NCBI GenBank assembly: GCA_021774785.1
Contig: JAJFIQ010000026.1
Coordinates: 186,001-250,000, forward strand
DNA from: Emcibacter sp.
GTDB taxonomy: Bacteria > Pseudomonadota > Alphaproteobacteria > Sphingomonadales > Emcibacteraceae
Reading direction: 5' to 3'
DNA: 64,000 nucleotides
Part shown: piece after piece, positions 41,258-58,773 of the stretch
Numbering within the stretch: the first letter of the stretch is position 1
Layout of the letters: every line of letters starts with the position of its first letter
Translations under genes and position numbers: made by a program
Notes under the pieces: generated by a model
What the model was told of the DNA's origin: nothing
Databases searched by the model: none
The model's input: only the letters and a program-made list of their open reading frames with translations

Positions 41258-42145
41258 TTAATCGGGGACAAATTTGGTGATCGCAAAAACTTTATTACCA
41301 TTCCCCATAAATTCCAGATAATCAAAACTTGTGGCACGGGCAAGGGCTATTCCGCGACCATGGCAGGTTTCATTGGCTGATAGATCAATGTCCAGATATT
41401 CCATATGGTTAAAGCCCGCGCCCTGATCCTCTATTTTAAAAGAAACCTGCGTATCTTCTCTCTCGAAGGTAATCTCCAGATACCTGTCTTTATATTCAGC
41501 CATGTCAAGACGCATGTTAATCTCATCCCGGTGAAGGTTATTGGCCATCAAGCGCCATTTTTCTTCATTACCTATCTCAAGATTACCATGTTCGATACCA
41601 TTGGCCAGCATTTCAAACAGGCCAAAAGCAATGCGATCCGAATCCGGACATGTCATGGCGAGCAATTTGGTCAGAGCTTCAGCCTGCTCGAAGTTTTTAA
41701 TGCGGAATGTTCCCCGCGTGATGGCTCCAAACACAGTATGGTAAGACTGGATTTTTAACCTGAGCGCGCGCCGTTGTAAAAATTCATTTTCTGCACTCTG
41801 CAGCACGGAATACAGCACATGATCCGTAAAGGCATTCTGTAACCATTGATAGGATGCTACATTCTTGGGGGAATTGTGCTTTTCGCTCGCCTCCTTGGTC
41901 AAATACAGGATCAATGGAATATCTCTGAAGCTGTCATTTTTGGCTAATTTTTTCAGGAAAATTTCATCCGCCATCAAGGGCTCATAATTAGTAATAATAG
42001 TATAAATTTCATCAGTATTTTTGGCAAGCAGATCATAAGCATCCTTAAAACCAGTCGCGGCTACATAAGGACAGTTTTTCTTTTCAAGAGCCATTGTAAG
42101 ATTTTTAGTGCACACTTTTTGATTGTGAACAACTAATATTTTCAT
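41258..42145 (-). CDS. degenerate receiver fused to anti-sigma-type HATPase domain
   Basis: A 295-residue two-domain protein. Residues about 1-120 have the receiver fold order (KILVVHNQ, IITNYEPLM, PLILYLTKEA) but the acidic pair is replaced by His-Asn and the phosphoacceptor Asp by Asn, so it should not be phosphorylated. Residues about 155-295 form an RsbW/SpoIIAB-like GHKL ATPase: FEMLANGIEHGNLEIG (N box), KIEDQGAGF (G1) and CHGRGIALARATSFDYLEF (G2). It is divergent from the STAS-led chemotaxis operon that also encodes a STAS antagonist and a PP2C phosphatase, so a partner-switch kinase is likely. The target protein is unknown. Confidence 0.82.
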   Translation of the reverse strand: MKILVVHNQKVCTKNLTMALEKKNCPYVAATGFKDAYDLLAKNTDEIYTIITNYEPLMADEIFLKKLAKNDSFRDIPLILYLTKEASEKHNSPKNVASYQWLQNAFTDHVLYSVLQSAENEFLQRRALRLKIQSYHTVFGAITRGTFRIKNFEQAEALTKLLAMTCPDSDRIAFGLFEMLANGIEHGNLEIGNEEKWRLMANNLHRDEINMRLDMAEYKDRYLEITFEREDTQVSFKIEDQGAGFNHMEYLDIDLSANETCHGRGIALARATSFDYLEFMGNGNKVFAITKFVPD

Positions 42146-42297
42146 AATATTTAATATCCTGAATATTAAGCGGTAATCTTATAGTCAATAGAATAATAAG
42201 GCTATAAATCTTTCAAAATCATTAATTTAACCGTGACAACCCTGTTATCTGCATTGTTTAAATGATATATACTTGAGGTAGAGTATTTTATATTAGT

Positions 42298-42324
42298 AAT
42301 TTCTACATAATTATATTAGAAATT
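42298..42324. promoter_or_regulatory. inverted repeat upstream of the chemotaxis operon
   Basis: AATTTCTA at 42298-42305 and TAGAAATT at 42317-42324 are exact reverse complements, 11 bases apart, in the AT-rich space between the HATPase gene and the STAS-cheY operon. The arms suit a dimeric regulator. No promoter could be assigned with confidence. Confidence 0.4.
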
Positions 42325-42336
42325 AAGAATAATCTT

Positions 42337-42353
42337 AAACTTATGTTAAGTTT
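42337..42353. promoter_or_regulatory. short palindrome before the chemotaxis operon
   Basis: AAACTTA at 42337-42343 and TAAGTTT at 42347-42353 pair exactly across a three-base centre. It lies about 65 bases before the preferred STAS start and could be an operator or an mRNA leader hairpin. It is distinct from the repeat at 42298-42324. Confidence 0.4.
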
Positions 42354-42418
42354 TCCTCCCTAACTTTCATTCAATAGGCATCAAATTGTCTGACAATTAT
42401 AAAAATTTGGAGAATATT

Positions 42419-42733
42419 GTGGGTATATTGAAAACAACTGATTCCAGTGATGAAATATGTCTGGTTCTAAAGTCCGTAATGGACTTGACCGTGGCCGAAG
42501 ACCTGCGACTTGGATTCCTTGACTGTCTGACAAAGAACAAGACCATAAAGATCATGGCCGGTGATGTTGAGCGTATCACCACACCCTGCCTTCAGGTGTT
42601 GTTCGCCATGAAAAATAAAACCGCAGAGCAAGACATAAAATTCTTAATTCCCGAGATGTCCGAGGCTTTTCAGAATGCACTTAAAGATGTCGGGCTTGAC
42701 GATCAGTTTATTACTTCGGAGCAGGACGTATGA
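42419..42733 (+). CDS. STAS domain protein at the head of the chemotaxis operon
   Basis: A small STAS-fold protein, 104 residues from the preferred GTG. It has LVLKSVMDLTVAEDLRLGFLDCL, then the VERITTPCLQVLFAM segment, and EMSEAFQNALKDVGLDDQF at the end, a pattern I recognise from short STAS genes beside alphaproteobacterial che operons. The usual DSxG phosphorylation motif is replaced by ITTPCLQ, so regulation by serine phosphorylation is doubtful. GTG 42419 has GGAG six bases upstream; a TTG at 42386 would add 11 residues. It overlaps cheY by four bases (ATGA). Confidence 0.82.
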   Translation: MGILKTTDSSDEICLVLKSVMDLTVAEDLRLGFLDCLTKNKTIKIMAGDVERITTPCLQVLFAMKNKTAEQDIKFLIPEMSEAFQNALKDVGLDDQFITSEQDV

Positions 42734-43095
42734 GTAAAACCGCACTGACAATCGATGATTCGAAAACCATGAGAGACATGGTTGCCTTCACCCTGAAAAA
42801 TGCGGGGTTTGAGGTTACCGAAGCCGAAAACGGACAATTGGGTCTGGATCAGATTAATGGCTCGTCATTTGATGTCATCATAACAGATATCAATATGCCC
42901 ATAATGGACGGCATAGAATTTACCCGCGAAGCCCGAAAACGGGCTGAAGCGCGGACAACACCTATCCTTATTCTGACCACAGAAAGCGGCTCTTCCCTAA
43001 AGAATGAAGGGCGAACTGCCGGAGCCACTGGCTGGATTGTTAAACCGTTTAATCCCGAAAAATTACTTCAGGTCGTTGAAAAGGTATGCGGGTAA
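42730..43095 (+). CDS. cheY: chemotaxis response regulator CheY
   Basis: Single-domain receiver of 121 residues. The acidic pair is in TIDDSKTMR near residue 8, the phosphoacceptor Asp in ITDINMPIMDG, Thr in LTTES and Lys in IVKPFNPEKLL. Closest to the CheY type found beside cheA in class-F-like alphaproteobacterial operons; it would be phosphorylated by CheA and bind the flagellar switch or serve as a phosphate sink. Only one free cheY is visible in this operon. Confidence 0.94.
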   Translation: MSKTALTIDDSKTMRDMVAFTLKNAGFEVTEAENGQLGLDQINGSSFDVIITDINMPIMDGIEFTREARKRAEARTTPILILTTESGSSLKNEGRTAGATGWIVKPFNPEKLLQVVEKVCG

Positions 43096-43123
43096 GTCCC
43101 CTTAAAAAGTAAAAGGAATATTT

Positions 43124-45172
43124 ATGTCAGATCCCATGGAGCAGTTTAAGGTCATTTTCTTTGAAGAATGTTCCGAGCTTTTGACAAGCCTTGAGGAAGG
43201 CCTGATGCTATTACAACAGGGCGATCAGGACTCGGAAACCATGAATGCGGTTTTCCGGGCCGTTCATTCCATCAAGGGCGGTGCCGGGGCCTTTGGTTTT
43301 GATGCTCTCGTGGCCTTCGCCCATATTCAGGAAACGCTGCTCGATGAAATGCGATCCGGCACCATTGTGATGAAGCCGGAATATATTGACGTTCTGCTAC
43401 AGGCCTATGACATTTTAAGCGAACTTGTCGGTGCTGCCCAGCGCCAAGTAGCCGTTGACAAGAATTATGGCGCCGAAGCAGCCTTGGCCATGAAAGCTAT
43501 CATGGAAAATAAAGGCGTAGCAGTATCAGAGAAAAAACCTGAGAGCCCGGACGAAGAATCACAAGATATTGATAGTCATCGTTTTAAAATCTCCTTCAAA
43601 CCTTTCGAGGAATTATACCAGCGCGCCAATGAGCCGATTTTGCTGATCCGAGAATTGCGCGATCTGGGCGAGATGGAAATGACACTGGATACTTCTGATA
43701 TGCCGAATCTTGAGGAGATGAACGCGGAACTGGCTTATTTCTCCTGGGAATTCAGTTTAGTGACAGAATTTAGCGAAGATGCCATTGAAGAAGTATTTGA
43801 ATTCGTTGAAGGCGATTGCGAACTGACCATTGAGCAAGAAAATTTAGTCACGCCAGAAAAACCCGTCCATACCAATGATCCAGCAGATGACAATATTACA
43901 GATCAGGCCGCTGTCCCGGCTAAATCCAATAGCGGGGAAACCGTAGTCAGTCAATCAATCCGTGTCGAACTGGATAAAGTGGACAGGCTGGTCAATATGG
44001 TCGGCGAACTTGTGATAACACAGGCCATGCTGCGTGAGCAGGGCAGCCAACTTCTGGTAGAGCAATATCCCAATCTGGTACAGGGTATCGAGGAGCTTTC
44101 CCGCCATATCCGTGATTTGCAGGAAAGTGTCATGGCTATCCGTGCGCAACCCGTGAAATCGGTCTTTTCCCGTATGCCCCGTCTGGTTCGGGAACTGACC
44201 GCGTCCTTGGGCAAAAAAGCCCGCCTTGTAATGTCCGGCGAAGAGACAGAAGTTGATAAAACCGTGACCGAAAGAATCGGTGATCCTCTGATGCATATGA
44301 TCCGCAACAGCGTAGATCATGGACTGGAATCCCCCGAAGCCCGTCTCGATGCAGGCAAAGATGAAGAAGGAACCATTCATCTTTCGGCCTTTCATCGGGG
44401 CGGGCGCATATTCATTGAAATTGAAGATGACGGGGCGGGCATCAACAAACAAGTGGTGCTGAATAAGGCCATTGAAAATGGTCTGGTCCCCCCAGACTCC
44501 AGCCTGTCCGATGAAGAGATTAATAATCTCATTTTCATGCCCGGATTCTCTACCGCAGAAAGTGTCACAAACGTATCCGGACGAGGCGTGGGCATGGATG
44601 TTGTCCGCAAAAATATTCAAAGTCTCGGTGGGCGCATATCCATCAGTTCAAATGCGGGAAAGGGTAGCAAATTCACCATGTCTCTGCCACTGACGCTGGC
44701 AGTAATGGATGGCATGGTGGTGGAAATAGGCACAGAAAAATTTGTCCTGCCGTTGGTGAATATCATTCAGACACTTCGCCCGACACCGCAAGAAGTTAAT
44801 AGCCTGCCCGATGGCCGCAATGTGATGATGTTCCGAGACGAATATATTTCTCTGGTGCCGCTCTATGATGTTTTCGATGTTAAGGATGCCACTCACGACC
44901 CCTGTGAAGGTCTTGTGGTCGTAGTCGAAGGCGACGGCGGCATACTCATGGGCTTCATCGTTGATGACCTTGTTAATCAGCAGCAGGTGGTGATCAAAAG
45001 CCTGGAGACAAACTACGAATTAATTGAAGGCGTATCGGGAGCAACCATCCTCGGCAATGGCCGGGTATCGCTGATTGTGGACATTGCCACCGTGCAGGAA
45101 ATGACAGCGAAAAAAACTCAGGAAACAGAAACTCACTTAACTCAGGTACCCGTCAGCATGGAGGTCCACTAA
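43124..45172 (+). CDS. cheA: chemotaxis histidine kinase CheA
   Basis: Central kinase, 682 residues. The HPt phosphorylated residue is His48 in AVHSIKGGAGAFGF. A linker with a P2-like region (about 140-270) precedes dimerisation (about 280-350), the ATPase domain with MIRNSVDHGLESPEAR, DDGAGINK and GRGVGMDVVRKN, and a CheW-like domain to the C-terminus. All catalytic boxes are intact. It phosphorylates CheY and CheB. Stop and cheW start overlap in TAATG, with a strong GGAGGT upstream. Confidence 0.97.
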   Translation: MSDPMEQFKVIFFEECSELLTSLEEGLMLLQQGDQDSETMNAVFRAVHSIKGGAGAFGFDALVAFAHIQETLLDEMRSGTIVMKPEYIDVLLQAYDILSELVGAAQRQVAVDKNYGAEAALAMKAIMENKGVAVSEKKPESPDEESQDIDSHRFKISFKPFEELYQRANEPILLIRELRDLGEMEMTLDTSDMPNLEEMNAELAYFSWEFSLVTEFSEDAIEEVFEFVEGDCELTIEQENLVTPEKPVHTNDPADDNITDQAAVPAKSNSGETVVSQSIRVELDKVDRLVNMVGELVITQAMLREQGSQLLVEQYPNLVQGIEELSRHIRDLQESVMAIRAQPVKSVFSRMPRLVRELTASLGKKARLVMSGEETEVDKTVTERIGDPLMHMIRNSVDHGLESPEARLDAGKDEEGTIHLSAFHRGGRIFIEIEDDGAGINKQVVLNKAIENGLVPPDSSLSDEEINNLIFMPGFSTAESVTNVSGRGVGMDVVRKNIQSLGGRISISSNAGKGSKFTMSLPLTLAVMDGMVVEIGTEKFVLPLVNIIQTLRPTPQEVNSLPDGRNVMMFRDEYISLVPLYDVFDVKDATHDPCEGLVVVVEGDGGILMGFIVDDLVNQQQVVIKSLETNYELIEGVSGATILGNGRVSLIVDIATVQEMTAKKTQETETHLTQVPVSMEVH

Positions 45173-45693
45173 TGACAACAATTGCAGCAAATGATACCCC
45201 CGCCGATGAACAGGCCGGGGACATAGCAGACATTAACCAGTATATTTCCTTTAACGTGGGAAAAGAGCTTTACGCCGTGGAAATCACAACCGTGCGCGAG
45301 ATCAAGGGTTGGATTCCCACCACCAGCCTGCCCAATTCACCGGATTATATGCGTGGTGTGATTAACCTGCGTGGTGTGATTGTTCCGGTCTTTGACCTGC
45401 GTACCCGCTTTCGCCGTGGCCAAACGGAGCCAGGCAAGAACCATGTGGTGATCATCGTAAAACTGGACGCACGAACCATCGGTATTCTGGTGGATGCGGT
45501 ATCTGATATTCTGAGCATATCGTCAGAAGAAATTCTCACCGTGCCAGATCTGGACGTAAACCCGGAATATAGATTCATGGAAGGCCTCGTCGCCGTAGAA
45601 GAAAAAATGGTGGCAATCATCAAGCCAAGATTACTTTTTAATATGGAATTAGTCCCGGATTTGGAACCAGAAACAGCGGCGGAAGTCGCCTGA
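45172..45693 (+). CDS. cheW: chemotaxis coupling protein CheW
   Basis: Adaptor joining receptors to CheA, 173 residues. The YISFNVGKELYAVEITTVREIKGW start (short form FNVGKELYAVEI), PDYMRGVINLRGVIVPVFDLRTRF and LVDAVSDILSI are classic. The GGAGGT ribosome site at 45160-45165 and TAATG coupling suggest matched expression with CheA. No irregularity. Confidence 0.96.
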   Translation: MTTIAANDTPADEQAGDIADINQYISFNVGKELYAVEITTVREIKGWIPTTSLPNSPDYMRGVINLRGVIVPVFDLRTRFRRGQTEPGKNHVVIIVKLDARTIGILVDAVSDILSISSEEILTVPDLDVNPEYRFMEGLVAVEEKMVAIIKPRLLFNMELVPDLEPETAAEVA

Positions 45694-45736
45694 ATTATCA
45701 TAATTATAAGATTGTGAATGACAAGGAGCACACAAG

Positions 45737-48004
45737 ATGAAGACCTCAGCAATACTATCACCCATACGCCGTCTGAATAACAGCACGCTTGGGTTAATAA
45801 TTTCCATCCTTTTGGTTGCAACAATGGCAATCTTCATCAGCATCGGGGTAGAGACTCAGAGCATGACAGTCCCTCTGGTCGGGTCGGTATTCACCGGATT
45901 TGCAGCCCTTGCTGCATGGCTCTCACACAGCAGGCAAAATGCCCAGTTGAGTGTCATGAACCATGCCCTGTCCAGACTGGAGGCGGGCGATGTAAGCGTA
46001 AAATTACCCGATGCAACGGGTGAAGATGATATGAGCCATATACTCAGGTCGATCACTGACATTCGGGACGGCAAGGAAAGAAACAATCGCTTGCAAAGCG
46101 CCCTAAGTGGCGCCCAGACCAATATCATGATTGCCGATACAGACTATAATATTGTTTATATGAATCAGACCATGTTGGATATGATGACATCAAATGAGGC
46201 CAAGCTGCGCGAAGTTCTGCCCCGGCTGGATGCCAACAAGCTCATCGGCACCAATATTGATTCATTCCACAAAAATCCGGCCCATCAGCGCGGCATACTG
46301 CAAAATCTGACCTCAACCATAGAAACTCATCTGGAACTGTCTGGCATCGAATTTGATCTGGTGGTCAGCCCGATCTGGGATGCCGACGGCGCACGTAACG
46401 GAACTGTCGTTGAATGGGAAGATGTCACTGAAAAACTGTTGAAAGAACGGACCGAAACCCGCCTTGCCAATGATAATCAGCGGATCAAGATCGCCCTTGA
46501 TAATGCCAGCACCAATGTCATGGTGGCGGATAAGGATTTCAATATTGTATATATGAATGACATCCTACGGGATATGTTACAGAAAGCGGAGCCGGAGCTC
46601 CGCAGGGTTCTGCCGAATTTTGATGCCAGCAAGCTCATCGGGACAAATATTGATGTCTTTCACAAAAACCCGGCCCATCAACGCGGCATGATGCAAAATC
46701 TGACCACAACCATCGACAGTAATATCAAGGTCGGTAAATTTGACTTCAACCTGATCGTTAACCCAGTCAATGGGGATGATGGGGAACGGCTTGGTACTGT
46801 TGTGGAATGGAAAGACATGACACAGGAACTGGCCATCGAAACAGAAATCAATGAAGTGGTTAATGCCGCAGCTTCCGGTGACTTCTCCAAACGCGTATCC
46901 ACCGAAGGCAAAGAAGGCTTTATGTTGAGCCTCGCCGATAACATGAATTCCATTGGAGCCAACACCCAAGCTGCAACAGATGACCTAGCCCGTGTTCTGG
47001 CGGAATTGGCGCAGGGAAATCTGACCGAGAAGATCGCTGCCAATTATGAAGGTACCTTCGAGTTGTTGAAAAACAGCGCAAACGGCACCGCAGAACAATT
47101 AACCAGCATCGTAACCCAGGTCAATAGTTCAGCAGGCGAGGTTGCCTCTGCCGCATCCGAACTTTCCACAGGCAGTGACGACTTGTCTCGGCGCACGGAA
47201 GCACAGGCATCGGCTCTGGAAGAAACCGCCGCTTCCATGGAAGAACTGGCAGTGACGGTGAAACAGAATTCGGATAATGCGAATGATGCCAACAAACTGG
47301 CCGATAAGTCCCGCGAAATGGCTGTTAACGGTGGTGAGGTGGCGAAAGAGGCTGTGGAAGCCATGGGCGTGATTGAGGATTCCTCACAAAAGGTTTCTGA
47401 CATTATCGGCGTCATAGATGATCTGGCCTTTCAGACCAATCTTCTGGCCCTCAATGCGGCGGTGGAAGCCGCACGGGCGGGCGAAGCCGGCAAAGGTTTC
47501 GCTGTAGTTGCCGAAGAGGTTCGTACCCTAGCCCAGCGCTCGGCTCAGGCCTCCAACGAGATAAAATCACTGATCACAAGCTCCAATTCACAGGTCAAAA
47601 GCGGCGTGGAGCTGGTCAATAATGCCGGCACCGCGCTCGGTGAAATCATGGAATCCATCGCCAAGGTGGCGGAAATTGTCTCTGAAATTGCCAGTGCCAG
47701 TTCAGAACAGACCCAAGGCATTGACGAAGTCAATGTTGCCATCGCCGAGATGGATGACATGACCCAGCAAAACTCATCCCTTGTGGAGGAAAGCACCGCT
47801 GCCGCACGGGTACTGGAACGTCAGGCCGCTGAAATGCAAGGCCTGATGGCCTTTTTCAAGGTAGAGCAGGGTGGTCATGGACAGCTTGCCGCCTCTCCCG
47901 TCCTTGTTCAACAGGAGCAGGCCGCAAGGATGGTGGAACCTGTCAAGACGCCGGACCTGAAGAATAAAGCCGTAGGCGGTGATGCTAAATGGGCTGAATT
48001 TTAG
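45737..48004 (+). CDS. methyl-accepting chemotaxis protein with tandem PAS domains
   Basis: Receptor of 755 residues. Two close membrane helices (about 18-38 and 44-62) leave almost no periplasmic part, so sensing must be cytoplasmic. PAS1 (about 121-233) and PAS2 (about 251-363) are near copies sharing [14 protein letters not shown] and [15 protein letters not shown]-like region follows (about 371-430), then the signalling hairpin with the [23 protein letters not shown] tip (short form [16 protein letters not shown]). The C-terminus KWAEF matches the xWxxF tether of CheR/CheB. Ligand unknown; PAS domains often bind heme, flavin or redox signals. Confidence 0.94.
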
Positions 48005-48015
48005 GAGCATCCCCC

Positions 48016-48873
48016 ATGTCAGAGGCCGCCGAAAGAGTCCGGGAATATGAATGGCGTGATCAGGATTTCAAATTCCTGGCCGGGCTGCTTCATGAAAAAA
48101 CCGGCATTGTATTGACCGAAAAAAAGAAAGAGATGATGTATGGTCGTCTGGTCCGCAGACTACGGGCATTAAGCATCCCAAGCTTTGCGGATTATTGCAA
48201 ATATCTGCAAGGCTCGTCCGGAAAGAAAGAACTGGGCTTCACCCTCAATGCCATCACAACAAACACCACCGACTTCTTTCGGGAAAAACATCATTTTGAA
48301 TATTTACGGGACCAGATACTGCCGCCAGTCAACAAACAGGTTGGTCTGAATTCTGCCCATCACTTCCGGATCTGGTCCGCTGGGTGCTCATCGGGACAGG
48401 AACCCTACAGCATTGCTATGGTTATGCGAAATGTTCTAGGGCCTTCTGCTCGGAATTGCAAAATTCTGGCCACGGATCTGGACAGCAATATGCTGGCGAC
48501 GGCGAAATTTGGCCAATATGACGCTGAGAAATGCCGCGAAACGATCCCAAGAACCTACCGCGCCTCCTATACCCAAAGGGTAAAGGATTCAGAAGGTGAT
48601 CTGGTGAAAATGAAGGATGAAGTAAAAAACCTCATTACCTATAAACAGCTGAACTTATTACATGATTGGCCCATGAAGGGAAAATTTGACATTATATTCT
48701 GTCGCAATGTCATGATTTATTTTGACAAGGAAACCCAGGACAAACTGGTGCGGCGCTACGCCACCTACCTGAAACCCAGCGGTATTTTATTTATTGGTCA
48801 TTCTGAAAGCCTGCTCAGTGTGTCGGATATCTATAAATGTGAGGGAAAAACAACATACAGGCTATTACGATGA
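48016..48873 (+). CDS. cheR: chemotaxis protein methyltransferase CheR
   Basis: SAM-dependent methyltransferase that methylates receptor glutamates, 285 residues. N-terminal helical domain, then the NTTDFFREKHHFEYL motif and the SAM-binding WSAGCSSGQEPYSIAM, with CRNVMIYFDKETQ near residue 225. The stop overlaps the cheD ATG (ATGA). The xWxxF tail of the upstream receptor is the expected docking site. Confidence 0.96.
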   Translation: MSEAAERVREYEWRDQDFKFLAGLLHEKTGIVLTEKKKEMMYGRLVRRLRALSIPSFADYCKYLQGSSGKKELGFTLNAITTNTTDFFREKHHFEYLRDQILPPVNKQVGLNSAHHFRIWSAGCSSGQEPYSIAMVMRNVLGPSARNCKILATDLDSNMLATAKFGQYDAEKCRETIPRTYRASYTQRVKDSEGDLVKMKDEVKNLITYKQLNLLHDWPMKGKFDIIFCRNVMIYFDKETQDKLVRRYATYLKPSGILFIGHSESLLSVSDIYKCEGKTTYRLLR

Positions 48874-49532
48874 TATCAACCCCCTCTGGCACCAAAGAAA
48901 AAGACCGTTCTAAATTTATTGAACATCGGCGGCGGGATATCATTGGCGATATTCCGGCAGGGTCAAATTATTATGATCATAAATTCGATACGATGGTTCA
49001 CAAGATCAACGAAGGCGGTTTCTGCGTATTAAGCCGATCAGAGCATGTGATTATGACAACGCTCGGCTCATGCATTTCTGTTTGCATCTTTGATCCGGTG
49101 GCGAAAGTGGGCGGCATGAATCATTTTCTTCTGCCCGAAGAACACAATGCTGACCGCAAGGACAGTTTCAGCATGAGGTACGGCAATAACGCCATGGAAA
49201 CGCTTCTCAATGAAGTTTTGAAGCGCGGCGGACAAAAAACACGGCTGGTGCTCAAGGCCTTTGGTGCGGGAAATGTCCTGTCCATCAATGCCGATATCGG
49301 GGCAAAGAATCAAATCTTTTTAAAACAATATATTACCGATGAAGGCATGAAGCTGGATACCTGCGATTTGGGCGGGGATTTTCCCAGACGCGTGGCTTTT
49401 TTCCCCGCCACTGGCAAAGCCTTTGTCAAGCTTCTCCGCCGGGCCGGGGATCGTAATATCGGCGACCAGGAAGAAAAATACCGCAGACAGATCGAGAAAC
49501 AGCATGTTTCCGGCGATATTGAATTATTTTAA
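48870..49532 (+). CDS. cheD: chemoreceptor glutamine deamidase CheD
   Basis: Deamidates glutamines on receptors and can modulate phosphatase activity in some bacteria, 220 residues. The active-site Cys and Thr lie in TTLGSCISVCIFDP near residue 66, with the His in GGMNHFLLPEE. The N-terminal about 40 residues are an extension. It ends in VSGDIELF, an acidic-hydrophobic tail usual in alphaproteobacterial CheD. Coupled to cheR by ATGA overlap. Confidence 0.95.
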   Translation: MISTPSGTKEKDRSKFIEHRRRDIIGDIPAGSNYYDHKFDTMVHKINEGGFCVLSRSEHVIMTTLGSCISVCIFDPVAKVGGMNHFLLPEEHNADRKDSFSMRYGNNAMETLLNEVLKRGGQKTRLVLKAFGAGNVLSINADIGAKNQIFLKQYITDEGMKLDTCDLGGDFPRRVAFFPATGKAFVKLLRRAGDRNIGDQEEKYRRQIEKQHVSGDIELF

Positions 49533-49543
49533 CAGGAAGGTCA

Positions 49544-50608
49544 GTGATGAAAAAAATAAGACTGTTAATTATTGATGATAGTATCCTGATCAGGACCATG
49601 ATCAAATCCATCGTGTCCACAGACCCTTCCATCGACGTGGTTGGCGAGGCAACAGACCCTTATGAAGCCCGCGACAAGATCAAACAATTAAACCCGGATG
49701 TCATTACCCTTGATGTGGAAATGCCTAAAATGGACGGGTTGTCCTTTCTGGAAAAAATTATGTCCCTGCGACCCATGCCTGTGGTTATGGTATCTACCCT
49801 GACCCAGAAAGGGGCAGATATAACCATAAAAGCACTGGAGCTTGGTGCGGTGGATTATGTAGCAAAACCACTGGATCTGGATTTAACGGTGATCGGACAA
49901 GAACTGATCCAGAAAATAAAAGTTGCCAGCACCGCCCGCATAAGACAAAGTGGCCGGCAAGGGCTTGCAAGACAGTCCAAAAAGCCCCTGATCAGTCCAG
50001 AAATATATACCAGAAAGTTAATTGCCATTGGCTCATCTACTGGCGGCGTAGAATCTCTCTATGACATCATTTACAACTTGCCCGTGGACTGTCCCCCTGT
50101 AATCATCGCCCAGCATATCTCAAAGGGATTTTCCGAGCGGTTTGCCATCAGAGTTAACAAAAGTTGTGCCATCACTGTGAAGGAAGCGGAGCATGGTGAA
50201 AAACTTCTGATGGGTACAGTTTATATTGGACAGGGTGGAAAACATATCACGGTGAAGAAATCAGGTCATAACTTTATCTGTCAGGTCTTGGATGATACGG
50301 AAGGGGAAAGTTATCGACCATCGGTGGACAGGCTGTTCTGTTCAGTGGCCGATGTGGTTGGATCGGATGCGGTTGGCGTCATACTGACGGGTATGGGCAA
50401 AGATGGTGCCCTTGGGCTATTGACCATGCGCGGGGCCGGAGCGGCCACTTTAGGACAGGATGAGGCCAGCTCAATCGTTTATGGAATGCCAAAGGCCGCT
50501 ATGATGGCCGGTGCCGTGGAAAGACAGGTACCCCTGTGCCATATGGCCCGGGAAATAATTCAAGCCTGTGCCAGTGCAACAACCAATAGGAAAGCCACAG
50601 CAGTATGA
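49544..50608 (+). CDS. cheB: protein-glutamate methylesterase / receiver CheB
   Basis: Response regulator that demethylates receptors, 354 residues. The receiver (about 4-125) has IIDDSILIR, the Asp in VITLDVEMPKMDG and Lys in AKPLD. The esterase domain shows the nucleophile Ser in AIGSSTGGVESL, His in IIAQHISKGFSERF and Asp in GMGKDGALGL. Phosphorylation by CheA opens the active site. The stop overlaps the next gene by four bases (ATGA), tying that gene to the chemotaxis operon. Confidence 0.96.
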   Translation: MMKKIRLLIIDDSILIRTMIKSIVSTDPSIDVVGEATDPYEARDKIKQLNPDVITLDVEMPKMDGLSFLEKIMSLRPMPVVMVSTLTQKGADITIKALELGAVDYVAKPLDLDLTVIGQELIQKIKVASTARIRQSGRQGLARQSKKPLISPEIYTRKLIAIGSSTGGVESLYDIIYNLPVDCPPVIIAQHISKGFSERFAIRVNKSCAITVKEAEHGEKLLMGTVYIGQGGKHITVKKSGHNFICQVLDDTEGESYRPSVDRLFCSVADVVGSDAVGVILTGMGKDGALGLLTMRGAGAATLGQDEASSIVYGMPKAAMMAGAVERQVPLCHMAREIIQACASATTNRKATAV

Positions 50609-51240
50609 CAGGCAGCCCCCACCCCAAGATAAATAATGATAATATGCAGGGTATGGCTGCAGAGGACCTGTTGGATATTCGGCAATCTACGATGGCTAAT
50701 ATCTCAGAAGAAATCCTGCAGGTTTCTGATCTTGTGGAAGACAGCATTGTTGACCTGTCCGATGAATTCATGAAGCTGGTGAAATATTCGAAACAACATG
50801 TTGATGACATGACCGTCGCCTGTGATCTCCTACAGGGGGAAAAGTCCGATAAGAGTGGGTCAATCAAAGATAAAGTGCATGAAATGTTACGGGAAAGTGC
50901 AAAGGTTTCCACCTACTTCCATCAAAATGTAAACCGCATGGTATATACCATGCAGTTTCAGGATCGCGCCCGTCAGCTTATGCATGCCATCTCTGCTTCT
51001 TTGAATATTTTAATTACCCTGTCTGAATCCATTGAAAAAGGTCAAAACTCCAACAAAATAAAGGAAAAAGTAACTATTTCAGTAGATAATAAGAATATTC
51101 TAATAAATATGATTGAAAATGCCGCTCACAAAGAGCTAGACCAAAATTACATCCTGAAAATGTTTATGGGTTCCGCCGAAGAAAATAGTGAAACGGGGCG
51201 TGATGATGAGGATGACTTCACCGATATTGAATTTTTTTAA
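50605..51240 (+). CDS. CheZ-like putative phosphatase of the chemotaxis operon
   Basis: A 211-residue helical protein not assigned to a named family by eye. The stretch MQFQDRARQLMHAIS at about 116-130 has the same FQD-x-x-x-Q arrangement as the CheY-dephosphorylating helix of CheZ, with D120 and Q124 in the catalytic places. The acidic C-terminus DEDDFTDIEFF resembles the CheY-binding tail of CheZ. Long helices (about 18-75 and 85-150) fit the four-helix-bundle core. It may be a diverged CheZ or a CheT-like protein known from rhizobia, as I recall it. Coupled to cheB by ATGA. Function inferred. Confidence 0.72.
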   Translation: MTGSPHPKINNDNMQGMAAEDLLDIRQSTMANISEEILQVSDLVEDSIVDLSDEFMKLVKYSKQHVDDMTVACDLLQGEKSDKSGSIKDKVHEMLRESAKVSTYFHQNVNRMVYTMQFQDRARQLMHAISASLNILITLSESIEKGQNSNKIKEKVTISVDNKNILINMIENAAHKELDQNYILKMFMGSAEENSETGRDDEDDFTDIEFF

Positions 51241-51251
51241 CTTGAGGACTC

Positions 51252-51563
51252 ATGATGGAATATCAAATCGACATTACCAAAGACATATTTAAAGCTAAAT
51301 TGAGCGAAAAGATTACTTTTTCAGATTTGGATGGCTTCCGGGAAATGGTAAAGCGTATGGTGGAAAGCAACTCTGATAGTAATATCGTTGATTTGGCTGA
51401 TGTGGAATTCATAGATTCCGCCGGACTGGGCATGTTATTACTGGCGCGCGATGAAATATCAAAAGTATCGTCAAATTTAACATTAAAGGCACCGCAAGGA
51501 CAGGTTCTACGCATGTTCAATGTGGCCCGCTTCGATCAGATGTTTGATATAGTAGAATATTAA
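51252..51563 (+). CDS. STAS domain anti-sigma factor antagonist
   Basis: A 103-residue classical SpoIIAA/RsbV-type STAS protein. The phosphorylatable Ser lies in EFIDSAGLGMLLLARD, with NIVDLADV before it and GQVLRMFNVARFDQMFDI at the end. Such proteins are switched by an RsbW-type kinase and a PP2C phosphatase; both candidates are in this window (41258-42145 and 51573-52814). GAGG precedes the ATG; a second ATG at 51255 is an alternative start. It lies 12 bases after the CheZ-like gene. Confidence 0.9.
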   Translation: MMEYQIDITKDIFKAKLSEKITFSDLDGFREMVKRMVESNSDSNIVDLADVEFIDSAGLGMLLLARDEISKVSSNLTLKAPQGQVLRMFNVARFDQMFDIVEY

Positions 51564-51572
51564 TCATAAAAA

Positions 51573-52814
51573 GTGGCTCCTTCATCAACATATCAACATC
51601 CTGTTCCGTCAAGACAGAAAAATATCGAATTTGACAGCATGCCAACGGATATTCTGGGCAGAAAAATTCTTATTGTCGATGATGACGAACTTCATTGTCA
51701 GTTGATTGCCATTATTTTAACCCAGGATGGCTACAAAAACCTGCATTTTGCCCGCGATGGCCGGGAGGCTTTGACTATGGCAACAGGCCTGAAACCGGAT
51801 ATGATCATTCTGGATATATTAATGCCAAATATTGACGGGCTGGAAGTCTGTCGCCAGCTTCGGGCAATGAGACAATTCAAAAACACACCCATCATCGCCC
51901 ATACCATAAAACATAGCCCCGATGACCGGGCCGAGATTTTTGATGCTGGGGCCACAGATATTTTCCCAAAACCCGTATCCGAAAGAGAGGTCCAGAAGCG
52001 CGTCACCATGCATCTGAAATATAACCGGATGATGAAGGGGCTGAAGAAATATCACCAACGATTGACCCATGATCTGGAGATCGCCCATTCCATGCAGGAC
52101 GCCCTGCTACCCGAATTATCACAATTGGAACAGATTATGGAAAGCCATGGGGTAGACATTGACTATCAATATGAATCGTCCCAAGAATTGGGGGGCGACT
52201 TTTGGGGTATTGATACTTTGGATCCGGACCGTCTCTATATCTATATCGCAGATTTTTCGGGTCATGGGGTAGCGGCCTCTTTAAATACTTTCCGGCTTCA
52301 CTCGCTAATCTCGAATTATAATATACCGAACGCCCAGAATGCCACGCCGGCGGACTATCTGGAAAAACTTAACCGGGATTTATTCAATTTATTGCCAGTG
52401 GAACAATATGCCACCATGTTATGTGGTTTCATTGATGTTCGCCAGGATACATTCACCTATGCCGCTGCCGCATCCACTGCACCTGTGAAGCTAAACATAG
52501 TGACCGGCGAAGTAACCACCCTCAACCCTGTCGGATTTCCTCTGGGTATGATCGCGGAGGCTACCTATGAAAACCACACCGTTTCCTTCAAAAAAGACGA
52601 ATTGCTTTTATTCTATAGCGATGTGCTAACTGAAAGCCGGGATCAGCAGGGCCGGATGATCGGCGACGATAATTTCGTGAAAATGTGTCATCAAACAAAT
52701 GCTCATCTTTGTGAAGACCAATCCTTCCTTAGCCGACTTCTGAAAAGCTTTGATATGCTGGTGGTCAGACCGTTGCTTGACGACCTGACGGCCGTTACCG
52801 TGAAAAGACTCTAA
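51573..52814 (+). CDS. response regulator with PP2C (SpoIIE-type) phosphatase domain
   Basis: A 413-residue protein joining an N-terminal receiver (about 30-150: ILIVDDDELHCQ, IILDILMPNIDG with the acceptor Asp, PKPVS with Lys) through a coiled coil to a PP2C phosphatase domain (about 195-410: QELGGDFWGI, IYIADFSGHGVAASL and FYSDVLTESRD metal sites). It should dephosphorylate the adjacent STAS protein when its receiver is phosphorylated. The GTG at 51573 has no ribosome site and the ATG at 51639 is an alternative. The stop overlaps the Lrp gene stop by four bases. Confidence 0.9.
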   Translation: MAPSSTYQHPVPSRQKNIEFDSMPTDILGRKILIVDDDELHCQLIAIILTQDGYKNLHFARDGREALTMATGLKPDMIILDILMPNIDGLEVCRQLRAMRQFKNTPIIAHTIKHSPDDRAEIFDAGATDIFPKPVSEREVQKRVTMHLKYNRMMKGLKKYHQRLTHDLEIAHSMQDALLPELSQLEQIMESHGVDIDYQYESSQELGGDFWGIDTLDPDRLYIYIADFSGHGVAASLNTFRLHSLISNYNIPNAQNATPADYLEKLNRDLFNLLPVEQYATMLCGFIDVRQDTFTYAAAASTAPVKLNIVTGEVTTLNPVGFPLGMIAEATYENHTVSFKKDELLLFYSDVLTESRDQQGRMIGDDNFVKMCHQTNAHLCEDQSFLSRLLKSFDMLVVRPLLDDLTAVTVKRL

Positions 52815-53414: not shown

Positions 53415-54785
53415 ATGCAACCAGCAAAACATGAACACTGGTCATCGGGGTTTACTTTCCTTTTGGCCGCCGTTGGCAGCGCCGTAGGCCTTGGTAATAT
53501 CTGGCGCTTTCCTTACGTTGTTGCCGAAAATGGCGGCGGGGCCTTTGTCTTGATATATTTGGCCATTGTCTTCGTATTCGGTATTCCGCTACTGATGTCT
53601 GAACTTATGATCGGACGCAGCTCTCAAAAACCACCCCTCAGTGCCATACAGACCTTCGGTCGCGGCTCCCGCGCCAAAAAATTATGGAATGCGCTGGGCT
53701 GGTCATATTTGCTGGTGCCGCTTGGTATATTGACCTTTTATTCCGTGGTCGCCGGATGGACCCTTGATTATGCCTTCGGCATGAGCATCGGCACCTTTAA
53801 CAATCTGGAAGACGGCGCATCAGCCAGCATGTTTCAGGATCTTCTGCAAAGCCCGATAAAGCTTGTTTTCTGGATGACATTATCCATTGGTATTACCGTA
53901 GGAATTGTCGCACGCGGATTGAAATCCGGTCTGGAACAGACGGTAAAAATATTAATGCCAGCCTTATTTGTGATCCTGATTATTCTGGTGCTTTATGCCT
54001 CCATTACCGGTGATTTTGCCAAAAGTTTTGCTTTTATGTTTGAGCCTGACTTTTCAAAAATCACGCCTGAACTGGTCCTGATGGCCGCAGGGCAGGCCTT
54101 TTTCTCCCTGTCTCTGGGCAGTGGGGCGATTATGGTTTATGGCTCATATCTGACCCGTGATATATCTATACCTAAAATGGCGGTGGGTGTTGCTCTTGCT
54201 GATTCAGGTGTTGCCTTGCTGGCCGGATTTGCCATCTTCCCCATCGTATTTGCTTTTGGAGTTGATCATTCGGCGGGGCCGGGCCTTGTGTTTGTCACCT
54301 TGCCCATCGTCTTTAATGATATGGGCGGCATTGGTCAGATATTCGGGGTATTATTCTTTCTGTTACTGGCTTTTGCAGCCGTCACCTCCACCATCTCCCT
54401 GTTAGAGCCGATGGTGGCCCAGCTCTCGGAAGAGGGAACCTTCAAGCGGGCACGCGCGGCCATATATAGCGGTGCTGTCTTATGGGTTGTTGGTGTTTTT
54501 GTCGCCCTGTCCAATAATATACTCAGCGACGTTCACCCCTTGGGATTCCTGCCTCTCTTTGAAGGCAAGACCATTGAGGGGGTCATTGAATTCCTCTCCG
54601 CCAATGTCTTTATGCTGCTCAACGGGTTGCTGGTATCAGTCTTTGTAGGCTGGTCCATAAAACGGACGGTGACGCTGGAGGAAATGGGACTGGGGGATTC
54701 AGTCCTGTTTAAAATCTGGTTCATGCTGGTACGTTTTGTGGTGCCACTTGGGGTTGGCTTTATTTTCTATGACGTGGTGCTGTAA
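53415..54785 (+). CDS. sodium-dependent transporter, neurotransmitter:sodium symporter (SNF) family
   Basis: Inner-membrane Na+-coupled amino-acid transporter, 456 residues with 11-12 hydrophobic helices. The signature AAVGSAVGLGNIWRFPYVVAENGGGAFV (short form GSAVGLGNIWRFPY) with its unwound TM1 sodium site is intact. GAIMVYGSYLTRD and LLLAFAAVTSTISLLEP match LeuT-like proteins. The Lrp gene is divergent. GGGA is eight bases before the ATG. Substrate unknown; the neighbouring hut genes make histidine or another amino acid possible. The 3' end overlaps hutG by 26 bases. Confidence 0.92.
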   Translation: MQPAKHEHWSSGFTFLLAAVGSAVGLGNIWRFPYVVAENGGGAFVLIYLAIVFVFGIPLLMSELMIGRSSQKPPLSAIQTFGRGSRAKKLWNALGWSYLLVPLGILTFYSVVAGWTLDYAFGMSIGTFNNLEDGASASMFQDLLQSPIKLVFWMTLSIGITVGIVARGLKSGLEQTVKILMPALFVILIILVLYASITGDFAKSFAFMFEPDFSKITPELVLMAAGQAFFSLSLGSGAIMVYGSYLTRDISIPKMAVGVALADSGVALLAGFAIFPIVFAFGVDHSAGPGLVFVTLPIVFNDMGGIGQIFGVLFFLLLAFAAVTSTISLLEPMVAQLSEEGTFKRARAAIYSGAVLWVVGVFVALSNNILSDVHPLGFLPLFEGKTIEGVIEFLSANVFMLLNGLLVSVFVGWSIKRTVTLEEMGLGDSVLFKIWFMLVRFVVPLGVGFIFYDVVL

Positions 54786-55554
54786 GAAAATATTCTATCA
54801 TAGCCTTTAGGGTTGGCCGTAATCTGGCGGCCAAATTCTCCCGAAAAATAAAGGTGGGTGCCTCATCCATATAAGTAGTTTGCGAAATTTCAAGCTGTAT
54901 GGCATGGATGTCATTGTCAGGATCGCCGTAGTGACGGGTGATGTATCCGCCCTTAAACCGCCCGTTCAGAACGCTGCTGTAGGGCGAGGAATTCGCGATG
55001 GCGAGCAGCCCTTCCGCCATATGCAGGCCACAGCTTGTACCATTACCACTACCAAGGTTAAGGTCTGGCAGTTGGCCATCAAAGAAACGCGGCACGTGAG
55101 CTTTAATGGAATGAGCATCCCATAACAGGGCATAACCAAATTGTGCTTTTATACGGTCCAGTTCAGCCCTTAATTTATCATGGTACGGTTGCCAATAGAC
55201 CTTCTGCCGCCGCTGAGTTTCCTGTTCGTCCGGCACACAACCCTCTTTATAAAGCGACTGATTGTCAAAGCCCGTTGTTGGGCAGAGCTCCGTCTCGCTC
55301 TGCCCTGGATAGAGAGCCTTACCGCCCGCATCCCGGTTCAGGTCAATGACCGTGCGGCTGTAATGAGCCATCAGTATGGATGCGCCCATGTCTTCCAGAA
55401 AATTATAGAGCTGATCCAGATACCAGTCAGTATCGGTAACCTGTCGGCCTTTTTCCGTTAAAGAAGCTTCCCCCTCCGATGCGAGAGCCGTACCCATATG
55501 AGGGATACTGACCAGAAGCGGGATACTTCCCTGACGGAAATGAAATGCCGCCAT
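54760..55554 (-). CDS. hutG: N-formylglutamate deformylase
   Basis: Hydrolyses N-formylglutamate to glutamate and formate in the five-step histidine pathway, 264 residues. Landmarks are PLLVSIPHMGT near residue 13, DTDWYLDQLYNF, YSRTVIDLNRDAGG, and LLWDAHSIKAHVPRFFDGQLPDLNLG (short form DAHSIKAHVPRFF). This is the deformylase type, which requires a formimidoylglutamate deiminase (HutF) upstream in the pathway; no hutF is in view. It follows hutH by one base. Convergent with the transporter, ends overlapping. Confidence 0.92.
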   Translation of the reverse strand: MAAFHFRQGSIPLLVSIPHMGTALASEGEASLTEKGRQVTDTDWYLDQLYNFLEDMGASILMAHYSRTVIDLNRDAGGKALYPGQSETELCPTTGFDNQSLYKEGCVPDEQETQRRQKVYWQPYHDKLRAELDRIKAQFGYALLWDAHSIKAHVPRFFDGQLPDLNLGSGNGTSCGLHMAEGLLAIANSSPYSSVLNGRFKGGYITRHYGDPDNDIHAIQLEISQTTYMDEAPTFIFRENLAARLRPTLKAMIEYFLTAPRHRK

Positions 55555-55555
55555 A

Positions 55556-57100
55556 TCACATTTTCCCTGAGGGTAAAATATCCATGACCGGATCGGAAAA
55601 AGCCCCCTCTTTCACCAATGTAGTGATGGCTTCTATATCGGGCGCGAAATAGCGATCCTGATCATAATAAGCAACATAGTTCCTTATTTTAAGCTGCATT
55701 TCCTGTAACACTTCAGAAGTCTTTTCCGGTACCCGCAAATCAATCCCCTGCGCCGCTGCCAAACATTCAATAGCAATCACGTTGGCACTGTTAAAGGCCA
55801 TATCAGACAGGCGCCGCGCACCAAAGGTCGCCATGCTCACATGGTCTTCCTGATTTGCGCTGGTGGGCAGGCTGTCGACGCTGGAGGGATGAGCAAAGCT
55901 CTTATTTTCCGATACCAGTGCCGCCGCCGTTACCTGCGCGATCATAAAACCGGAATTGATTCCGCTGTCACGAACCAGAAAAGCCGGCAGGTTGCTCATT
56001 TTCGGGTCTATGAGGAAAGCCAGCCGTCGCTCTGATATGGCCGCTATCTCGCACAAGGCTAGTGCCAGCGTATCAGCGGCAAAAGCCACAGGTTCCGCAT
56101 GAAAATTGCCGCCGGAAATTACATCGCCATTTTCGAAAATCAGGGGGTTGTCAGTCGTGGCATTGGCTTCAATAAGTAGCGTCCGGGCGGCATTATTGAT
56201 GATGTCAAGGCAGGCCCCCATGACCTGTGGCTGGCAGCGCAAGGAATAGGGGTCCTGCACCTTGCCACAATCTACGTGGGACCGCATAATGCCACTGCCC
56301 TCTAGTAAAGCCAGATATTTCGGGGCCACCGCAATCTGTCCCGGTTGACCGCGAGCCGCATGAATACGGGCATCAAAGGGAGCAACACTTCCCATAAGGG
56401 CATCAATGCTCATGGCGCCCGCAACCACCGCTGCGGCGAATATATCTTCCGTCTGGAACAGCCCGACCAGTGCCAGTGCCGTGGATACCTGTGTCCCATT
56501 CAAAAAGGCTAACCCCTCTTTAGCACACAATGTTATGGGCTTTAGACCAACTTTCTTTAGGCCATCCATGGCGGAGATTTTTTCACCCTCGCATCTGACA
56601 TAGCCTTCACCCATTAAGGCTGCCGTCATATGAGCCAGCGGCGACAAATCACCAGACGCCCCAACAGAACCCTTTTCCGGTATACAGGCTATCAACCCGG
56701 CATTGATAAAATCAATAAAGGCCAATATGGTGGATAGCCTTATGCCGGAATGACCCTGGCTCAGGCTGGAGATTTTTAAAGAATATATCAGCCGAACCAC
56801 ATCATCGGAAAGGTCTTTGCCTACACCTGTGCAATGGGACAGGACGAGATTAGTCTGAAGTTTTTCCAGATTATCATCATCGATACTGGTGCTCGCCAAC
56901 AGACCGAAACCCGTGTTGATACCATAAACAGTCTGACCATCTGCAATGATGTCTTCCACGGTTTTACGCGACCGTTCAATCTCGGGGTAAGCCGCTTTAT
57001 CAAGAACAATCTGATAGGGCATACGGTATATCTTTCTCAGATCCCCAAGCGATATTTCTGCCGGATGAATAGTGAAGATAGTCTCAGATATATGGCTCAT
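55556..57100 (-). CDS. hutH: histidine ammonia-lyase
   Basis: Deaminates histidine to urocanate, 514 residues. The MIO cofactor comes from the Ala-Ser-Gly of [13 protein letters not shown] near residue 145. YGINTGFG and [14 protein letters not shown] are also intact. The ATG at 57100 overlaps the hutU stop as ATGA, which decides the start; a longer frame beginning at 57148 adds residues foreign to the family. Middle gene of the operon hutU-hutH-hutG. Confidence 0.97.
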
Positions 57101-58773
57101 CCCGCATCTCCAAACATGGGCAGCTTCAAGCCTTTTTCCTTGGCACATTCTATGGCCGTATCATATCCGGCATCGGCATGACGCATGACGCCAGTTGCGG
57201 GATCATTCCACAAGACCCGGCCCATTTTTTCTGCGGCATCGTCGGTGCCATCGGCCAAAATAACCACGCCCGAATGCTGGGAAAATCCCATACCAACGCC
57301 GCCACCGTGATGCAGGCTAACCCATGTGGCCCCGCTGGCTGTATTGAGCAACGCATTAAGCAACGGCCAGTCTGACACCGCATCGGAGCCATCTTTCATG
57401 CTTTCGGTTTCCCGGTTAGGACTAGCGACAGAGCCACTGTCCAGATGATCGCGCCCGATGACTACCGGGGCCTTCAGCTCGCCGTTTCTGACCATTTCAT
57501 TAAAGGCCAGGCCCAGCTTGTGTCGTTCCCCCAGACCGACCCAGCAGATACGCGCCGGCAGCCCCTGAAACTGGATACGGTCACGGGCCATATCGAGCCA
57601 GTTATGCAGATGGGGATTGTCAGGGATCAATTCCTTGACCTTCTGGTCTGTCTTGTAAATATCTTCCGGATCGCCGCTAAGAGCCACCCAGCGGAAAGGG
57701 CCAATACCGCGACAAAACAAAGGCCGCACATAAGCCGGAACAAACCCTGGAAAATCAAAGGCATCTTCCACGCCTTCATCAAAGGCCACCTGCCGGATAT
57801 TATTGCCATAATCAAAGGTTGGAATGCCCATATGGTGATAATTCAGCATGGCTTTCACATGGATCGCCATAGATGCTTTTGCCGCAATCTCAACCGCTTT
57901 CGGGTCGCTTTCCCTCATGGCAATCCATTCATCAACTGTCCAGCCTATGGGCAGATAACCATTATGTGGATCATGGGCCGATGTCTGATCTGTGACCGCA
58001 TCAGGCTTAATGCCGCGCCTGATCATTTCAGGTATAATCTCCGCCGCATTACCCAGCAGCCCTACAGAAATAGCGGTGCCTTCCTCTGTGGCGCGGATGA
58101 TCATTTTCATGGCCTCATCCAGTGTTTCAGCTCTTTTATCCAGATATCCCGTGTTCAGACGCATTTGGATACGGTCCGACTGGCATTCAATGGCCAACAT
58201 ACTGGCCCCGGCCATGGTTGCGGCCAAGGGCTGTGCGCCCCCCATACCACCAAGACCGGCCGTCAATATCCATTTTCCCTTCAGATCGCCACCAAAATGT
58301 TGGCGGCCCATTTCCACAAAAGTCTCGTAAGTCCCCTGCACAATGCCCTGACTGCCAATGTAAATCCAGCTTCCGGCTGTCATCTGGCCGTACATCATCA
58401 GGCCTTTTTTATCCAATTCATTAAAATGGTCCCAATTGGCCCAATGAGGCACCAAATTGGAATTGGCGATCAGCACCCGTGGTGCCCCCTTATGGGTGGG
58501 AAAGATACCAACCGGCTTGCCGCTCTGGATAAGCAGGGTCTCATTTTCCTCTAGATCCTTCAGGCTTTCAACTATCTTATCAAAACATTGCCAGTTACGG
58601 GCCGCCCGACCAATGCCGCCATAAACCACCAAGGCATGCGGGTTTTCAGCAACCGCAGGGTCAAGATTATTCATCAGCATTCGAAGTGGTGCTTCCGTGG
58701 CCCAGCTTTTGGCACTAAGGATTGTTCCGGTCGCGGCCTTCACAATACGGGAATTTTGTCTGTTAATTGTCAT
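57097..58773 (-). CDS. hutU: urocanate hydratase
   Basis: Converts urocanate to 4-imidazolone-5-propionate using tightly bound NAD, 558 residues. Recognisable blocks are [12 protein letters not shown] near residue 32, [34 protein letters not shown], and [18 protein letters not shown] near the end. First gene of the hut operon on the minus strand; a TGTATAGACA site lies 13 bases upstream of its ATG. Several long opposite-strand frames inside it are shadows. Confidence 0.97.

Follow-up and report, generated by a model that had tools for sequence, protein, structure and literature searches.

We provide evidence that a 64,000-nucleotide stretch of the genome of a marine alphaproteobacterium, an Emcibacter sp. 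(hereafter the window), carries a chemosensory operon which, judging by protein comparisons, belongs to the F7 class and has the 'stage 1' layout. We suggest, with a probability of roughly 70%, that the output arm of this operon is a partner switch of the HsbR/CrsR type, a kind that governs stress genes in other bacteria, here split between separate genes. The window lies in contig 19 of a 3.5-Mb genome with a completeness rating of 100%. Between positions 42386 and 52814 it holds a tight string of genes on the plus strand, in the order STAS1-CheY-CheA-CheW-receptor-CheR-CheD-CheB-CheZ-like-STAS2-(REC-PP2C), and the gene for an RsbW-like HATPase is divergent from the head of this string. One transcript from STAS1 to the PP2C gene is plausible because these genes share a strand and, by their coordinates, overlap or are 9 to 43 bases apart (11 bases from the CheZ-like gene to STAS2 and 9 from STAS2 to the phosphatase gene). 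An earlier reading, made from the sequence alone, had listed these genes in this order. All twelve open frames were found where it had placed them; Pfam supports most of the assignments, and CheR and CheB were identified by matches to the E. coli proteins. The genes are as follows.

41258 to 42145, minus strand: HATPase, a stand-alone RsbW-type serine kinase of the type found as the third domain of HsbR/CrsR, with an N-terminal pseudo-receiver (Pfam HATPase_c_2 PF13581, motifs, hhalign).
42386 to 42733, plus strand: STAS1, the first STAS protein of F7 clusters (sub-threshold Pfam STAS match; position at the cluster head).
42730 to 43095, plus strand: CheY (Pfam Response_reg, 94.5 bits).
43124 to 45172, plus strand: CheA, probably of the F7 class (Pfam Hpt, dimerisation, HATPase and CheW domains; identity to E. 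coli F7 CheA).
45172 to 45693, plus strand: CheW (Pfam).
45737 to 48004, plus strand: Aer2-like chemoreceptor (Pfam PAS, HAMP and MCP domains; matches to Aer2 structures).
48016 to 48873, plus strand: CheR (39% identity to E. coli CheR).
48870 to 49532, plus strand: CheD, with the C-terminal end GDIELF (Pfam CheD).
49544 to 50608, plus strand: CheB (46% identity to E. coli CheB).
50605 to 51240, plus strand: CheZ-like protein, an McpA-type C-terminal part without the receptor hairpin (hhalign profile comparison).
51252 to 51563, plus strand: STAS2, an RsbV/HsbA/CrsA-type antagonist with a DSAGLG phosphosite (Pfam STAS, 49.7 bits).
51573 to 52814, plus strand: REC-PP2C phosphatase of the RsbU/SpoIIE family (Pfam REC, 95.4 bits; SpoIIE, 112.2 bits).

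The assignment to the F7 class is based on three proteins, compared with the E. coli F7 proteins and the genome's own paralogs and with no other F classes. CheA is 42% identical to E. coli F7 CheA over 662 residues, as against 38% over 395 residues to the second CheA of the genome. CheR and CheB likewise resemble their E. coli F7 counterparts (39% and 46% identity) more than the corresponding proteins of the second che set (32% and 36%). In a quick CheA tree, in which branches are long, E. coli F7 CheA branches from within the set, and the second CheA lies apart from it. The signalling domain of the receptor aligns with that of E. coli Tar with zero indels, as in the 36H class, whereas the other receptors of the genome differ in this domain by 7- and 14-residue blocks. 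At its C-terminus the receptor has KWAEF, a tail of the CheR-tether type (x-[HFYW]-x2-[HFYW]). Both of its PAS domains contain the motif FHKNPAHQR, which, as in Aer2 structures, would carry the heme-binding histidine. The second PAS domain matches the P. aeruginosa Aer2 PAS-HAMP structure 3VOL (E=3e-65) and the first matches the Aer2 heme-PAS structure 4HI4 (E=8e-32). With two PAS domains of the Aer2 heme type, the receptor probably responds to oxygen.

The modules of a CrsR/HsbR-type switch, namely a receiver, a PP2C phosphatase, a kinase and a STAS antagonist with a Ser phosphosite, are all present. A single three-domain protein of this type is not at the locus, where phosphatase and kinase are two genes. 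REC-PP2C keeps all the receiver residues (D36, D37, D81 and K133) and all the presumed metal ligands (D209, D227, D350 and D403), each of which is invariant in 12 homologues. STAS2, which the earlier reading had called a phosphorylatable antagonist, has the phosphosite DSAGLG, and the Asp-Ser pair is present in all homologues aligned. STAS1 reads TTPCLQ at this position rather than DSAG; it scores below the Pfam STAS cut-offs (20.9 and 18.8 bits), a weak identification, and it heads nearly all F7 clusters fetched. The HATPase reaches 28.4 bits against PF13581, barely above the Pfam cut-off, and its N-box and G boxes (E178, N182, D240-x-G242-x-G244 and G263-R-G) are invariant in 12 homologues. 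Residues 1 to 130 of this protein form a degenerate receiver, which matches those of intact homologues (hhalign, 97.9%) but lacks the acidic pair, the phospho-Asp and the Lys. A kinase that is a separate gene and bears an apparently dead receiver domain is new. All F7-che-linked kinases have a degenerate receiver, whereas 8 kinases without che genes in the stretch fetched have an intact one (Fisher p=0.007, phylogeny not corrected). The stand-alone kinases at L161-L168 combine an intact receiver with no che genes nearby; in these the kinase itself would be the target of phosphorylation. Where the phosphatase has a receiver of its own, control may have shifted to that domain.

These features suggest the following mechanism. 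Oxygen would be read by the two Aer2-type heme-PAS domains and relayed to CheA activity via the 36H receptor, which CheR, CheB and CheD would adapt. Phosphorylated CheA would phosphorylate CheY and CheB, and it may also phosphorylate the receiver of REC-PP2C, thereby switching the phosphatase on; we rate this last transfer at somewhat below even odds. Active REC-PP2C would remove the phosphate from the Ser of the STAS2 DSAGLG motif, and the divergent HATPase would be the opposing STAS2 kinase. That STAS2 is a substrate of both enzymes seems highly probable. Because the HATPase receiver is dead, phosphorylation control would enter only via the phosphatase side. Unphosphorylated STAS2 would draw the HATPase, or some other binding partner, away from a target whose gene lies elsewhere; an ECF (extracytoplasmic function) sigma factor or RpoH is possible. 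Flagellar number and c-di-GMP, the outputs named by the sequence-only reading, may be among the processes affected.

The same locus occurs in relatives, which include metagenome-assembled genomes of marine Alphaproteobacteria and Emcibacter sp. The whole arrangement is at this locus in three genomes of the same genus (G004, G005 and G011) and, as far as the contig end, in a fourth (G013). We examined its wider distribution in 336 other alphaproteobacterial genomes, treated as independent; weak matches to the kinase profile in small genomes (E above 1e-20), probably other GHKL ATPases, were left out. The kinase was found in 20 of the 336 genomes and an F7-like CheA in 38. Both were present in 13 genomes, where 2.3 would be expected (p=3e-9); in 8 of these 13 they lie within about 12 kb of each other on one contig, for which a simple model gives a chance probability of about 6e-15. 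A collinear che-McpA-STAS2-RECPP2C-HATPase cluster is present in several other families; this order, on one strand, is the usual one (L040, L041, L043, L130, L132, L133 and L143). The kinase is on the opposite strand at L146 and L169, and a fused REC-PP2C-HATPase adjoins the che genes at L157, as in CrsR, the fused form being present also at L042. Conservation at the same locus within the genus and recurrence across the class argue that the arrangement is not due to chance. Two tandem REC-PP2C proteins, or one longer frame, are found beside the F7 cluster of Azospirillum (L056 and L057) and a relative (L149). A genus of the same family that lacks the kinase (G019) has a shortened F7-like cluster (L096), in which STAS1-CheY-CheA is followed directly by a receptor hairpin.

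Relatives also permit a reading of the history of the locus. Throughout the genus the whole set sits between LeuS-HolA-ECH and AsnC. At the same place in three sister genera (G016-G018), the HATPase gene is divergent from STAS2-PP2C and there are no che genes between them. One of these, G016, has an F7 operon elsewhere (L095), McpA-like gene included, with no triad of kinase, STAS2 and PP2C adjoining. In a tree of the triad, the genus joins the che-less triads of the same family (96-97 by the SH-like approximate likelihood ratio test, SH-aLRT) and the alternative is rejected (approximately unbiased [AU] test, p=0.001); this test replaced a triad clade test with p=1e-7, which was unfair in that it split a family. 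In the che tree, the G016 operon groups with other families, apart from the genus (98 SH-aLRT), and a joint clade is rejected (AU p=0.009). Together with synteny, the two trees make an insertion the simplest reading: the triad was probably ancestral at the locus in this family, and the F7 operon was inserted between the kinase and STAS2-PP2C, although this is not proven, since the clades under test were chosen once the trees had been seen and both are quick trees, several of whose branches are long. Such an insertion would probably represent an independent origin, i.e., a second assembly, of the che-triad pairing.

Several observations weigh against a signal passing from the F7 array to the switch. 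Triads without linked che genes exist. Within the genus, moreover, the switch has decayed by steps beside che genes that were kept. G008 and G010 no longer have the kinase gene, and their PP2C protein is without a receiver and without two of the metal ligands (D209N and D403G). In G015 and G001 there is no PP2C gene between STAS2 and AsnC; G015 still has the kinase on another contig. STAS2, PP2C and kinase are all missing in G009 and G012. While several of these assemblies are incomplete drafts, each loss falls within an assembled stretch, with the exception of the kinase loss in G001 and G012. As the che genes outlive a decayed switch, they have a role without it, and their linkage in the window is no proof of signal flow; as they are retained in all of these genomes, the operon can be kept without the switch. 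The earlier reading had named, as an outcome that would refute it, a STAS-PP2C pair not kept together with che genes in relatives. The pair is kept with them in many lineages, but not in the sister genera, whose triads are che-less, nor in the several species of the genus in which the switch has decayed or been lost beside che.

These losses lend some weight to a bystander linkage, in which CheY and the CheZ-like protein would carry the output of the F7 operon to the motor or to some other target, and the triad would answer a different phosphodonor. The two would then have a locus, and perhaps a transcript, in common but not a signal. We consider this unlikely, although it is the most probable of the alternatives. 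It would account for the persistence of triads without linked che in sister genera and of che beside a decaying switch, and there is a precedent in P. aeruginosa, where HsbR is fed by the phosphotransfer protein HptB and hybrid kinases and not by CheA (PMC6482189). Other phosphodonors do exist in the present genome, as a second che cluster on contig 24 lies near CtrA-like, ChpT-like and FliI/FliJ-like genes, identified by sequence reading. That this set belongs to the same system was rejected; it has no CheD, its CheA has two CheW domains, and its neighbourhood is a flagellar/CtrA one. A bystander linkage fits poorly, however, with linkage in at least 8 sampled alphaproteobacterial genomes as well as in gammaproteobacteria, seemingly with more than one origin, and with the very low probability of chance linkage given above.

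A feedback arrangement, in which STAS1, STAS2 or both bind array components and the switch controls how abundant or how active the F7 array is, is improbable. It would explain why STAS1 is retained in switch-less operons wherever the stretch is assembled, and why two STAS proteins flank the operon. However, STAS1 is without an Asp-Ser phosphosite, and the phosphatase and kinase are dispensable for retention of the operon. Sigma-factor control as in Shewanella (RpoS) or Pseudomonas (FliA via FlgM) is very improbable, even though homologous three-domain regulators act on RpoS (PMC9855816) and HsbA acts on FlgM/FliA (PMC6482189), since neither RpoS nor FliA was recognised among the 13 sigma-70-region-2 proteins of this genome, which by sequence reading are RpoD, an RpoH-like protein and ECF types; given the 100% completeness rating of the assembly, both were rejected as targets of the switch.

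An F7 operon with a split partner switch as its output arm remains our preferred reading. The label of CheZ-like, given by the sequence-only reading to the gene between CheB and STAS2, is a weak identification that depends on profile comparison. The Pfam scan gave no PF04344 (CheZ) match for this gene, and the two PF04344 matches of the genome lie elsewhere. One of these (contig 11:170530-170952) is about 2 kb from FliM; the other (contig 14:79773-80054) has a long acidic C-terminal extension, giving about 380 residues in all. The window protein has 211 residues, with an FQDRARQ motif and a DIEFF tail and without a receptor hairpin, and it matches the C-terminus of the McpA-like receptor found in the same slot of other clusters (hhalign, 98.6%, E=1e-15). 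McpA-like proteins in turn match CheZ profiles (70%, E=4e-5; reversed control, 0.4%), and their FQDxxxQ aligns with the segment DFQDLTGQ of E. coli CheZ. The direct match of the window protein to CheZ is not significant; only the link via the McpA-like proteins has support. The FQDxxxQ motif is present in 31 of the 34 members of this family, with profile support only for the McpA-like forms. In the McpA-like F7 receptors of other loci (L040, L041, L043, L056, L057 and L130-L149), which occupy the slot between CheB and STAS2, the FQDxxxQ segment follows the receptor hairpin. AlphaFold2 models (mean predicted local distance difference test score of 51 for the CheZ-like protein and 43 for the HATPase, the latter from one sequence) were of too low a quality to search for similar folds and were set aside.

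A second feature of these proteins is their C-terminal end. A tail like [DE][IV]E[LFM]F is present in 31 of 34 CheZ-like/McpA-like proteins and 33 of 44 CheD proteins (distinct sequences), as compared with 1 of 1319 background frames. In CheD this tail is found across the phylum, and in the window it lies at 49512-49529 (CheD) and 51223-51237 (CheZ-like). According to Ortega (2020, PMC7184735), F7 stage 1-2 clusters are without cheZ, and the conservation of the McpA C-terminus is striking and unexplained. We propose that McpA-like proteins may be receptor-tethered CheZ-type phosphatases, and maybe the missing CheY phosphatase of F7 stages 1 and 2, and that the tail common to them and CheD may dock on a shared partner, perhaps CheY. 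If true, these proposals would fill two gaps, the lack of cheZ and the conservation of the McpA C-terminus. No paper on the McpA/CheZ relation or the CheD tail was found in the limited literature searched, and this speaks only weakly for novelty. A more extended reading, which we advance tentatively and think doubtful as a whole, is that F7 operon and triad joined independently more than once, the pairing being a selected circuit; that a heme-PAS oxygen array drives a switch that does not act on RpoS; and that McpA-type 'receptors' are hairpin-tethered CheZ-type CheY phosphatases with a docking tail, [DE][IV]E[LF]F, in common with CheD, the partner of which is perhaps CheY.

What ancestral F7 chemosensory systems do is still an open question (PMC7184735, PMC7534058). 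The relatives described here offer a natural experiment, as within one genus the same che operon is accompanied by an intact switch, a half-decayed one or none, and sister genera have the switch alone. Both the driving of the switch by the F7 array and the nature of its target where RpoS is absent are thereby made directly testable. Downstream of the switch, at 54760-58773, there are genes recognised by eye as HutG-, HutH- and HutU-like (histidine utilisation), which have no relation to the present findings.

The joining of che genes to a kinase-antagonist-phosphatase switch, as put forward by the sequence-only reading, is borne out by the linkage and the catalytic residues, but the wiring is not new. 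The idea of coupling is largely known from the gene order of stage 1 F7 clusters (PMC7184735) and from Shewanella Che1 with CrsR/CrsA (PMC9855816), and for some F7 systems of gammaproteobacteria it is the present hypothesis, although not proven there either. Ortega (2020, PMC7184735) described F7 clusters that begin with an anti-sigma antagonist and finish with an antagonist and a serine phosphatase, the stage 1 order being STAS-cheY-cheA-two cheW-aer2-cheR-cheD-cheB-mcpA-STAS-PP2C. The window shares this gene order with the stage 1 clusters of gammaproteobacteria (V. cholerae cluster III and M. alcaliphilum; PMC7184735), as well as the 36H receptor with a CheR tether and a second che system elsewhere. 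It differs in having one CheW rather than two, a 211-residue protein without receptor hairpin in the McpA slot, a kinase encoded separately and divergently at the head, and a genome in which no RpoS was recognised. The Che1 (F7) system of S. oneidensis lies with CrsR/CrsA, a partner switch on RpoS (PMC9855816), and thus also has an F7 operon beside REC, PP2C, kinase/anti-sigma and STAS antagonist parts. As described there, CrsR is one three-domain protein; in the window, phosphatase and kinase are separate, the latter has a pseudo-receiver, and the CrsR target RpoS was not found. In P. aeruginosa, phosphorylated HsbR dephosphorylates HsbA (PMC6482189), and the REC-PP2C-kinase logic and Ser-phosphorylated STAS antagonist resemble those of the window (PMC6482189, PMC5085249). 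HsbR differs in being one protein that is fed by HptB and not known to be fed by CheA, and the targets of HsbR/HsbA are FlgM, HsbD and RpoS (PMC6482189, PMC5085249). Among solved structures, the nearest relative of the HATPase profile is PDB 9qih, 'SenB', across both domains (E=2e-23; no SenB paper was found), and that of REC-PP2C is PDB 3eq2, a probable two-component response regulator (E=6e-50). Compared with these systems, what is new is a host without a recognised RpoS, a split kinase with a dead receiver, a hairpin-less McpA-type protein, a probable second assembly of the pairing and its stepwise decay.

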